DNA from: an uncultured Actinomycetes bacterium
GTDB taxonomy: Bacteria > Actinomycetota > Actinomycetes > Nanopelagicales > Nanopelagicaceae
NCBI GenBank assembly: GCA_903825015.1
Contig: CAIJYZ010000033.1
Span: 1 to 42,185, forward strand
Reading direction: 5' to 3'
DNA: 42,185 nt
Position 1 is the first letter of the stretch, and every line of letters starts with the position of its first letter. The position numbers were made by a program, and so were the translations under genes. Positions 30,622 to 36,304 of this stretch are shown here, piece by piece. The notes under the pieces were generated by a model, which was not told the DNA's origin, did not search any database, and saw only the letters and a program-made list of their open reading frames with translations.

Positions 30622-31476
30622 TCACTTAAGCAATTGAGTGATGGCTCCTTGTATTTGCATAGTAATCATCTCTGCAGAGATAGGGCCACCCCTAGATGCA
30701 TTTTTTGCTGCTTGTGCATGAATAAATGCACCGGTAGCAGCGACTTCAGCTAATCGGTTTATGTCATTGAGAATTTCCACAGTATTTGTTGCAACTAATG
30801 CACCAATAATGCCTGCTAACACATCACCACTTCCTGCAGTTGCAAGCCATGGAGTTGCAATTGGTAATTCAATAAGTAAATTATCATTTGCGACGTAGGT
30901 AATTGAACCTTTAAGTAGAACTGTTACGCCAAGTGTTTGCGCAGCAGTTTGAATCCATTTTTTTGGATCTCCCTCAATTGCTTCAACTGATACTGGAACC
31001 CCGCGAGAAGTTAATAAGGTAGAGAGTTCGCCGCTATGCGGAGTTATTAATGTTGGTTGCTCTAATGACCCTGCCAAATAAAGTGCTCCAGCATCTAACA
31101 CGGTTGGAACACTTTGCTTAGCAGCCAATGTAAACCAGCGATGTCGAAGATATGTTGTAATACTTGAGTATTTCTTTGCTGGAATTCCGGAACCTATTAG
31201 CCAAGCACTAACTTTTCCTGGCTGAACAACACACGATGGCGTTGCATGTAAAACTAGGTGTGCCAAACCGGATGAACTATGAAAACGAATCATTCCAATG
31301 CCAGTTGCAGCGGCGGCAGAAGTTGAAAGTACCGCCGCACCTGGAAATTGTGCTGAACCAGTTATAACGCCAATAACTCCGCGAGAATATTTATGGTCTA
31401 AGTCACTTGGAACAACGATGCACTTCTTAGCATCACGGGCAGACCATTTCTTGGAAGTTTTTGTTAATTGGCTCAT
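30622..31476 (-). CDS. nnrD: ADP-dependent NAD(P)H-hydrate dehydratase (stand-alone NnrD domain)
   Basis: RGVIGVITGSAQFPGAAVLSTSAAAATGIGMIRF...LDAGALYLAG...LITPHSGELSTLL...VLLKGSITYV...TAGSGDVLAGIIGALVA. ATG 31476 preferred over 31491. Confidence 0.9.
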   Translation of the reverse strand: MSQLTKTSKKWSARDAKKCIVVPSDLDHKYSRGVIGVITGSAQFPGAAVLSTSAAAATGIGMIRFHSSSGLAHLVLHATPSCVVQPGKVSAWLIGSGIPAKKYSSITTYLRHRWFTLAAKQSVPTVLDAGALYLAGSLEQPTLITPHSGELSTLLTSRGVPVSVEAIEGDPKKWIQTAAQTLGVTVLLKGSITYVANDNLLIELPIATPWLATAGSGDVLAGIIGALVATNTVEILNDINRLAEVAATGAFIHAQAAKNASRGGPISAEMITMQIQGAITQLLK

Positions 31477-31615
31477 AACTAATTGTTGCATACAACCAAC
31501 TGGGGGATAGCACTCGTGAAAGCTGAGCCCAAATATTGAAAGCGATGCGCATCACGGTTTCATTTGTACTTAATATTTTTAAAGAGAGTAACCTAAAAAT
31601 TGTCAAGGAGACATC

Positions 31616-32887
31616 ATGAGAAAGTTACTCGTATTAGGTGGCGGCACAGCCGGCACAATTGTCGTTAATAAATTAGTTAAAAAACTCCCGAAAGATTCTT
31701 GGGAAATTACAGTAGTAGACCAGGATACAAAGCATATTTATCAGCCAGGGCTGCTATTTCTTCCCTTTGGAACATATGAGCCCGAACAGATAATCAAGAA
31801 ACGTCAGAGTTATTTTCCAAAAGGCGTGGATTTTATTCAGGCACAAATCGACAGGGTTGATCCCGAACTCAACAAGGTTTATCTAAGTGATTCCCGTGTC
31901 CTTGAATATGATTATTTAGTCATTGCATCTGGCACAACACCTCGTCCAGATCAAACGCCCGGAATGAATGATCCAAAGCTTTGGTACAAGAGCGTTTTTG
32001 ACTTCTTCACTTTAGAGGGCTCTGTTGCTTTGCGCGAAGCACTTAAGAATTTTAATGGGGGACGCCTGGTTGTCCATATTGCTGAGATGCCGATTAAGTG
32101 CCCTGTGGCTCCACTTGAATTTACATTTTTAGCTGATGCCTACTTTGAAAAGCGTGGTATCCGTGACAAAGTCGAAATTGTTTATGTGACGCCGCTTGAA
32201 GGCGCTTTTACTAAACCTGTCTGCTCTAAAGCTTTGGGATTCATGCTGGATGAACGAAAAATCACGTTAGAACCCGATTTCGTTATCGAACATATCGATG
32301 CCGAAACAAAGACCATGGTTTCAATGGATGAACGTGAAATTGCATTTGACTTGCTTGTAACCATTCCAGTCAACATGGGAGCTGATTTCATAGCACGCTC
32401 TGGATTGGGAGATGAGCTCAACTACGTTCCTGTCAGTAAGCGCACTTTCTTATCAGATAAATTCGCAAATATTTTTGTGCTTGGCGATGCCTCAAATATT
32501 CCTGCATCTAAGGCCGGATCTGTTGCTCACTTTGCAATCGATTTATTTTCAGAAAACTTCGCAGAATATGTGCAAGGCCGTCCGATGACTCACGAATTCG
32601 ATGGTCACGCTAATTGCTTTATCGAGTCTGGTCATCGCAAAGGCTTGCTCATTGACTTTAACTATGACGTAGAACCACTTACCGGCAGATTCCCAATCCC
32701 AGTGATTGGCCCTATGCCATTATTGAAAGAGAGTTATTTAAACCATATGGGCAAGTTAGCTTTCAGGTGGATTTACTGGAATATCTTGCTTAAAGGACGC
32801 TACCTACCTATCCCGTCATTAATGTCGATGGCCGGAAAGGATCAAGTCATAAAAATGAATAAGGAGAGAGAAAATGCCCACAATTGA
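31616..32887 (+). CDS. Sulfide:quinone oxidoreductase-like FAD/NAD(P) oxidoreductase
   Basis: MRKLLVLGGGTAGTIVVNKLVKKLP...YLVIASGTTPRPDQTPG...IKCPVAPLEF...FVLGDASNIPASKAGSVAHF...ANCFIESG. Confidence 0.85.
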   Translation: MRKLLVLGGGTAGTIVVNKLVKKLPKDSWEITVVDQDTKHIYQPGLLFLPFGTYEPEQIIKKRQSYFPKGVDFIQAQIDRVDPELNKVYLSDSRVLEYDYLVIASGTTPRPDQTPGMNDPKLWYKSVFDFFTLEGSVALREALKNFNGGRLVVHIAEMPIKCPVAPLEFTFLADAYFEKRGIRDKVEIVYVTPLEGAFTKPVCSKALGFMLDERKITLEPDFVIEHIDAETKTMVSMDEREIAFDLLVTIPVNMGADFIARSGLGDELNYVPVSKRTFLSDKFANIFVLGDASNIPASKAGSVAHFAIDLFSENFAEYVQGRPMTHEFDGHANCFIESGHRKGLLIDFNYDVEPLTGRFPIPVIGPMPLLKESYLNHMGKLAFRWIYWNILLKGRYLPIPSLMSMAGKDQVIKMNKERENAHN

Positions 32888-33188
32888 AATAGCTAGCAAG
32901 CCTGTCACCGTTAACGAAGAAGGTTTCATGACCGTCTATGACGAATGGAGCGAAGATATCGCCAAGGTGTTAGCGGCCCAAGTCGAAATCGAATTAACGC
33001 CAAGGCATTGGGAAGTCATTCACTTCTTGCGTGAGGATTACAAAAAAGAAGGCGAATCATCGACATCGCGCCATACACAAACCGTCGGTGGTTTTCCAAT
33101 TAAAGAACAGTTTGAATTATTTCCAAAGAAACCTGCAAAGAAAATGTCGTATATAGCTGGACTTCCAAAGCCTAAGGGCTGTGTTTAA
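32874..33188 (+). CDS. DsrC/TusE-family sulfur carrier protein, single C-terminal Cys
   Basis: VNEEGFMTVYDEWSEDIAKVLAAQVEIELTPRHWEVIHFLREDY...IKEQFELFPKKPAKKMSYIAGLPKPKGCV; penultimate Cys conserved. Confidence 0.9.
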   Translation: MPTIEIASKPVTVNEEGFMTVYDEWSEDIAKVLAAQVEIELTPRHWEVIHFLREDYKKEGESSTSRHTQTVGGFPIKEQFELFPKKPAKKMSYIAGLPKPKGCV

Positions 33189-33199
33189 AGGGGATTGAA

Positions 33200-33721
33200 A
33201 TGACTACACCTGCAATTGTTCCAAATTTTGGAAGTGAAGATACTGGCCGCAAGATGGCGATTATCTGCTCAAAAGGAAATTTAGACATGGCTTACCCGGG
33301 ATTGATTTTGGGTAATGCAGCGTTAGGTGAAGGTATCGAAACGCATCTATTTTTCACATTCTGGGGCTTTGACATGATTATCAAATCTCGCATGGATGAT
33401 CTGCAATTTTCACCAGCCGGTAACACGGCGATGCACTTGCCTGGCACTAATGCCCATATTCCTCAAGCCGTTATGCCTGTACCTGGAATGACATCTATGG
33501 CAACTCACATGTTGAAGAAGCAGTTGGATGATTTGAAGATCCCATCTGTTCCGGATTTTCTTGAGCAGATTGTTGCAGCTGGTGGACATTTATGGGCATG
33601 TCGATTATCTGCAGATATGAATAAGGTCTCTGAAACAGATCTACGCGATGACGTTGAAGGAATAATAAGTGCGTCAGATTTCATCGAAATGACAGAAGGC
33701 GCTCAACTTCTATTCATTTAG
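33200..33721 (+). CDS. DsrE/DsrF/DrsH-like (DsrE2-type) sulfur-transfer protein
   Basis: KMAIICSKGNLDMAYPGLILGNAALGEGIETHLFFTFWGFDMI...HLWACRLSADMNKV; conserved Cys in the LWACRxSADM motif. Confidence 0.87.
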   Translation: MTTPAIVPNFGSEDTGRKMAIICSKGNLDMAYPGLILGNAALGEGIETHLFFTFWGFDMIIKSRMDDLQFSPAGNTAMHLPGTNAHIPQAVMPVPGMTSMATHMLKKQLDDLKIPSVPDFLEQIVAAGGHLWACRLSADMNKVSETDLRDDVEGIISASDFIEMTEGAQLLFI

Positions 33722-33774: not shown

Positions 33775-35973
<2,199 letters not shown>

Positions 35974-35974
35974 C

Positions 35975-36304
35975 ATGATTAAACAGCGCAAGCTCGGCCC
36001 GTGGTCTCCATTGGGCGGTGGATCTAATTTTAAGAAATTAGCGACGGGTGATTTAGGTATCTTTAAAGAGATGGCCGATCGTAAAGGTGTCTCTGTATAT
36101 GCATTAACCATTGCGTGGCATTTGAATCAATTTCCAACATCAATTCCAATTCCAGGGGCCTCTAGAGTTTCATCGATTTTAGATTCACTAGCCGGTGTGG
36201 ATATTTCGTTGACAGCAGAAGAAATTCAAGAACTCAATGCAAGTTGTCCAACCGATACTCCTATTAACTCTGAACTTTTGGATATCGCCACCCTTGGCGC
36301 TTAG
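35975..36304 (+). pseudogene. C-terminal third of an aldo/keto reductase (remnant or minigene)
   Basis: WSPLGGG...KEMADRKGVSVYALTIAWHLNQFPTSIPIPGASRVSSILDSLAGVDISLTAEEIQELNAS matches the AKR C-terminus only; the catalytic Asp/Tyr/Lys barrel half is absent and katG ends 1 bp upstream. Confidence 0.7.

Follow-up and report, generated by a model that had tools for sequence, protein, structure and literature searches.

The stretch of DNA analyzed here (the window; 42,185 nucleotides from an uncultured Actinomycetes bacterium of the family Nanopelagicaceae) carries a sulfide:quinone oxidoreductase (SQR) gene, a DsrC/TusE-family gene, and a DsrE2-like gene on one strand and in that order. The trio is a conserved same-order unit, far from a chance arrangement, and the reading that we cautiously favor is that it forms a self-contained sulfide-capture relay in which a protein, instead of a small thiol, accepts the sulfur. 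Each of the three families was already known and their combination appears to be new; no description of an SQR-DsrC-DsrE2 unit was found in the open-access literature, a scope that leaves out most subscription journals. The unit and its immediate neighbors are as follows.

30622-31491, opposite strand: NAD(P)H-hydrate dehydratase gene, head to head with the trio
31492..31615, no strand: divergent intergenic region of 124 bp with no regulator gene inside
31616..32887, + strand: SQR gene (ATG at 31616, stop ending at 32887; 423 aa)
32874..33188, + strand: DsrC/TusE-family gene (ATG at 32874, stop ending at 33188; 104 aa)
33200..33721, + strand: DsrE2-like gene (ATG at 33200, stop ending at 33721; 173 aa)
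33808-35973, same strand as the trio: KatG (catalase-peroxidase) gene, 87 bp downstream of the trio

The three-gene operon and coordinates described in an earlier note on this DNA were reproduced from the sequence: the DsrC gene starts inside the end of the SQR gene (14-base overlap), and the DsrE2-like gene follows after a gap of 11 bp. All three starts are preceded by a purine-rich, ribosome-binding-like stretch. The operon promoter is likely to lie in the divergent intergenic region; scans for promoters and terminators gave matches at chance level only.

In a scan of named genomes, the three genes were found in the order SQR-DsrC-DsrE2 at 78 of 80 loci, the other two ending at contig edges; these loci were picked by SQR similarity and thus show linkage given this SQR, not overall frequency. 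The hosts belong to at least four phyla and comprise Actinomycetota (Nocardioides, Phycicoccus, Intrasporangium, Actinoplanes, Kribbella, and Acidimicrobiia), Chloroflexota (Anaerolinea thermolimosa), and bins of Bacteroidota and Trueperaceae. The order was likewise fixed in all 15 loci of the window's own family. The minimal sulfur-trafficking unit proposed in the earlier note is supported, and the three genes are conserved together, where the note had named the opposite as a ground for refutation. In a scan of 398 Actinomycetota genomes, SQR scored over the cut-off in 32 (seven of them with an in-frame TGA) and DsrC in 48. Twenty-seven of these 48 genomes have a Cys-type SQR (25 over the cut-off and two partial) with DsrC adjacent to it, and the DsrC and DsrE2 genes follow the SQR gene on the same strand in the Cys-type loci fetched, some DsrE2 genes running past the fetched stretch. 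DsrC thus accompanies the Cys-type SQR in 27/27 genomes and occurs in 21/371 others (Fisher p = 4e-29). One further DsrC genome (G349) holds a variant of the trio in which the SQR is divergent, and dsrA was over the cut-off in 19 of the remaining 20, compared with 0/23 trio genomes. At the G349 locus (L144:6072-7741), an SQR-like gene scoring 98 bits against the window protein lies beside ordinary DsrE2-like and DsrC genes. Distances among the three gene trees agree (r of 0.65, 0.65, and 0.83), to which shared host ancestry may contribute. A plasmid search returned only distant SQR-like proteins with about 28-35% identity.

Some related loci hold further genes. In 30 of the 79 trio loci, SQR and DsrC are separated by a gene for a protein of about 230 residues (e.g. 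L043:8239-8961); a Bacteroidota member matches DUF1641, and the one actinobacterial member tested fell short of that model. An HTH_17 gene lies directly upstream of the trio in 26/77 related loci, in many cases with a PocR sensory domain (L094:6192-7004 and L105:1374-2093 are examples), and these regulators are candidate sensors of sulfide or sulfane sulfur. The genes for the 230-residue protein and for the HTH_17 protein co-occur above expectation (19/29 vs 7/48, p = 1e-5). Both are absent beside the window trio, and the DUF1641-like gene may either have been lost from this version of the trio or never have been part of it. DUF302 proteins were seen shortly downstream of several trios (L068:9921-10313, L078:9932-10324, and L048:9716-10123). 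Beyond this occasional DUF302, no recurrent sulfur gene was found in the flanks, where the other genes are mostly unrelated.

Since a regulator stands beside so many related loci, regulation evidently matters in the trio system, and a rather improbable alternative builds on this: the SQR alone would carry out the sulfide chemistry by polysulfide release or by loading a small thiol, and DsrC and DsrE2 would act as a sulfane-sulfur sensor that tunes expression or enzyme activity. A DsrC that has one cysteine and lacks a dedicated enzyme partner would suit such a role, as would the adjoining HTH_17/PocR gene. The regulator is a separate gene, however, and is missing from the window while both carriers remain; the trio DsrC gave no DNA-binding domain match in a domain search; and conservation of all three genes across several phyla, together with an invariant reactive cysteine, fits a reaction partner better than a sensor.

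The genome from which the window comes is 1.36 Mb long and 86% complete, so absences carry less weight in it than in complete congeners. Its order is probably the freshwater acI group (Nanopelagicales); the sampled members all fall within one small-genome family, and SQR was over the cut-off in 24 of 201 genomes. In the carriers of the window's genus that were read, the trio occupies one chromosomal site, after glpD, GH25, an 85-aa gene, a response regulator, and NAD(P)H-hydrate dehydratase. DsrE2 was present in 8/8 carriers and in 0/13 single-contig non-carriers; within the genus, the trio comes or goes as a block. TusA (PF01206) had no match in the window's genome or in 13 congeners (14 genus genomes, single-contig ones included), and within the window's genome there was no match to relatives of TusBCD/DsrEFH (PF02635), to CCG/Hdr protein (PF02754), or to DsrA or a related sulfite reductase, although the last model detects assimilatory enzymes in controls. 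With TusA missing from the genus and TusBCD/DsrEFH and CCG/Hdr from the genome, the SQR is the only evident donor beside the two carriers, and the lack of CCG proteins in this genome speaks against a link to the sHdr pathway. The earlier note had held that a complete DSR, sHdr, or TusBCD system elsewhere would speak against its interpretation, and none was found in this genome. The lack of Dsr, Tus, and Hdr partners, which it had noted for the window, stood genome-wide. The genome has four rhodanese-domain matches, so a relay need not end at DsrC.

The missing sulfite reductase also bears on a second alternative, to which we give slightly less credence than to the sensor: that the relay mainly feeds cysteine, Fe-S, or cofactor synthesis with sulfur from sulfide in cells unable to reduce sulfate. 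Assimilatory sulfate reduction is missing from cultured acI strains, some of which possess a CysM-CysO-Mec route (PMC5301498). Against this assimilatory role, most congeners do without the trio, its carriers include genomes with a sulfite reductase match, ordinary cysteine synthesis needs no sulfide oxidation, and the acI membership of the window's genome is itself something that we infer.

The flavoprotein encoded by the first gene is an SQR by family and by predicted fold, as the earlier note had assigned it, and probably acts as an FAD-dependent sulfide:quinone oxidoreductase. Its match in NCBIfam is NF049943 ('type III sulfide quinone reductase, selenoprotein subtype'), with 631 bits where the cut-off is 525. 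Among solved proteins, human SQOR is the closest in sequence and also the top PDB fold match of the predicted model (mean pLDDT 87; TM 0.84-0.85, E about 1e-39), with the FAD domain in common. The two SQR-type cysteines quoted in that note are in place as Cys162 (IKCPVAP; codon 32099-32101) and Cys334 (ANCFIESG; codon 32615-32617). By alignment, their counterparts in the human enzyme are Cys201 and Cys379, the residues that carry its catalytic trisulfide (PMC12510033), and both are kept in 116/116 trio homologues; a third cysteine (203) is not conserved. The helix at 374-391 is a possible membrane-contact helix. A different identity, as some other oxidoreductase linked to quinone or NAD(P)H (NDH-2 or CoA-disulfide reductase, for example), is very improbable: it does lie within the wide Pyr_redox_2 superfamily, but the models for these two enzymes scored far under their cut-offs, NDH-2 ranked behind human SQOR by fold (E about 3e-27), and both SQR cysteines are invariant.

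The window SQR differs from the selenoprotein subtype after which NF049943 is named in having cysteine (codon TGC) instead of selenocysteine at position 334, yet it passes the cut-off easily; automatic annotation may therefore mislabel such Cys-only proteins. An in-frame TGA was found exactly at the Cys334 position in seven loci of one actinobacterial family of close relatives (f26) in the Actinomycetota scan (L011, L012, L013, L014, L016, L028, and L030), a finding that fits selenocysteine and a redox function at the second catalytic position; a selenoprotein form of SQR with the motif HxxU is listed in a 2026 review (PMC13188914). These TGA-type loci have no adjacent trio, and dsrA is present in most f26 genomes. 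Unlike human SQOR and the TGA-type actinobacterial proteins, the window SQR is genetically tied to DsrC and DsrE2.

The second protein belongs to the DsrC/TusE superfamily (PF04358, 104 bits, cut-off 24.9; TIGR03342, 79.7 bits, cut-off 53.5), and its gene is single copy in the window's genome. It shares the family fold and the penultimate reactive cysteine with the DsrC of the dissimilatory sulfite reductase system: Cys103 (codon 33180-33182), pointed out in the earlier note, is kept in 113/113 trio DsrCs with a readable end. The same note had placed Tyr at the second cysteine of the C-x10-C arm, which proved wrong; both the spacing and the alignment put Ser92 (codon 33147-33149) there, in the column where two-Cys DsrC proteins have Cys and E. 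coli TusE has Thr, and the Tyr is residue 93. Across the trio DsrCs, position 92 is Ala in 81, Ser in 31, and Thr in one, and never Cys. Where an organism has no DsrAB, its DsrC-family protein nearly always shows Ala, Ser, or Thr at this position (PMC3397948), so the single cysteine is the expected state and not unusual; the earlier interpretation otherwise held as to the SQR, the minimal unit, and the absent partners. A canonical DsrC role was rejected on the single arm cysteine and on the lack of a dsrA match in the window's genome and, over the cut-off, in the 23 trio genomes.

In a tree with eight reference sequences, one of them TusE, the DsrCs of the trios group as a clade of their own (support 0.95, with few references). 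Like E. coli TusE of the TusABCDE tRNA-thiolation relay, the window protein is a single-Cys TIGR03342 member with a residue other than Cys at the second position, and this resemblance would suit a TusE-like role in tRNA 2-thiouridine synthesis with the SQR as an unusual sulfur source; such a role is hardly credible and was rejected, as the protein scored 59.9 bits against the TusE equivalog PRK11508 (cut-off 191), lacks the 7-residue insertion of TusE, has neither TusA nor TusBCD as partners, and, unlike a housekeeping tRNA pathway, is missing with the rest of the trio from most congeners.

The third protein, also encoded by a single-copy gene, matches PF13686 (DsrE_2) with 100 bits. Fold matches of its predicted model are 2qs7 (DsrE2B of S. 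solfataricus, the nearest solved structure) and 3pnx. The cysteine that had been noted in LWACRLSADM is Cys134 (codon 33599-33601), kept in 109 of 110 readable trio homologues. Domain, fold, and conserved cysteine are those of a DsrE2 carrier; the score against the NF047629 equivalog was 105 bits (cut-off 210), and the protein is therefore named DsrE2-like. A DsrE2-type carrier is shared with the rhd-tusA-dsrE2 and dsrE3A-dsrE2B-tusA clusters (sHdr pathway) of sulfur oxidizers. The trio differs from them in that TusA is absent from its surroundings and from the genus, the genome shows no CCG/Hdr protein, and a DsrC, lacking in many such clusters, is present. As in the DsrEFH to DsrC transfer of Allochromatium vinosum, a DsrE-fold sulfurtransferase stands beside a DsrC acceptor with a penultimate cysteine, but the window has one DsrE2-like gene in place of three subunits, and the donor would be the SQR and not rhodanese or TusA.

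In the relay that we favor, a membrane-attached SQR would oxidize H2S by means of Cys162, Cys334, and FAD and pass the electrons to quinone. Cys134 of the DsrE2-like protein would then take up the sulfane sulfur that remains on the SQR and hand it to Cys103 on the DsrC arm, yielding a cytosolic protein persulfide; the two carriers would thus stand in for glutathione or CoA, the small thiols that usually accept sulfur from SQR. Loaded DsrC may then supply a consumer or be discharged, and for the cell the outcome would be sulfide detoxified, electrons gained, and sulfur kept reduced. The SQR assignment, invariance of the cysteine pair, the in-frame TGA at the second cysteine in f26, fixed gene order, block-wise presence, absence of dsrA, and the lack of another evident donor were counted in favor. 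In Allochromatium, experiments have shown a DsrE-type protein passing sulfur to the penultimate cysteine of DsrC: DsrEFH loads up to three sulfurs on this residue in vitro and the second cysteine is not needed (PMC3397948). SQOR is promiscuous as to its sulfur acceptor (PMC12510033); both observations argue for the relay. Weighing against it, transfer from the SQR to DsrE2 or DsrC is a step that we infer, M. cuprina DsrE2B, a DsrE2 relative, was inert with the compounds tested, the genome's four rhodaneses, encoded away from the trio, might draw sulfur as rival acceptors, and the trio loci have no recurrent downstream sulfur consumer.

DsrC-family proteins also occur in genomes without DsrAB and TusBCD, and the strict block-wise link points to SQR as their likely donor. 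More tentatively than for the trio itself, single-Cys DsrCs outside the Dsr and Tus pathways may be dedicated SQR acceptors that form, with a DsrE2-like protein, a minimal and widespread sulfide-capture machine in place of small-thiol acceptors; if so, this role would account for many orphan DsrC proteins. A protein-borne acceptor would then be added to the scheme of sulfide oxidation, and the scheme would reach cultured Nocardioides, Phycicoccus, Intrasporangium, and Anaerolinea as well as some small-genome actinobacteria.

Base composition (42.7% GC in the trio, 43.8-45.4% in its surroundings) gave no signal of recent transfer. KatG was considered as a fourth operon member and rejected, as among the family loci read its position next to the trio is confined to the window and one congener (L128). 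Downstream of KatG, positions 35975-36304 encode a 109-aa aldo/keto reductase fragment that matches only profile positions 226-288 of 291 and is probably a gene remnant.
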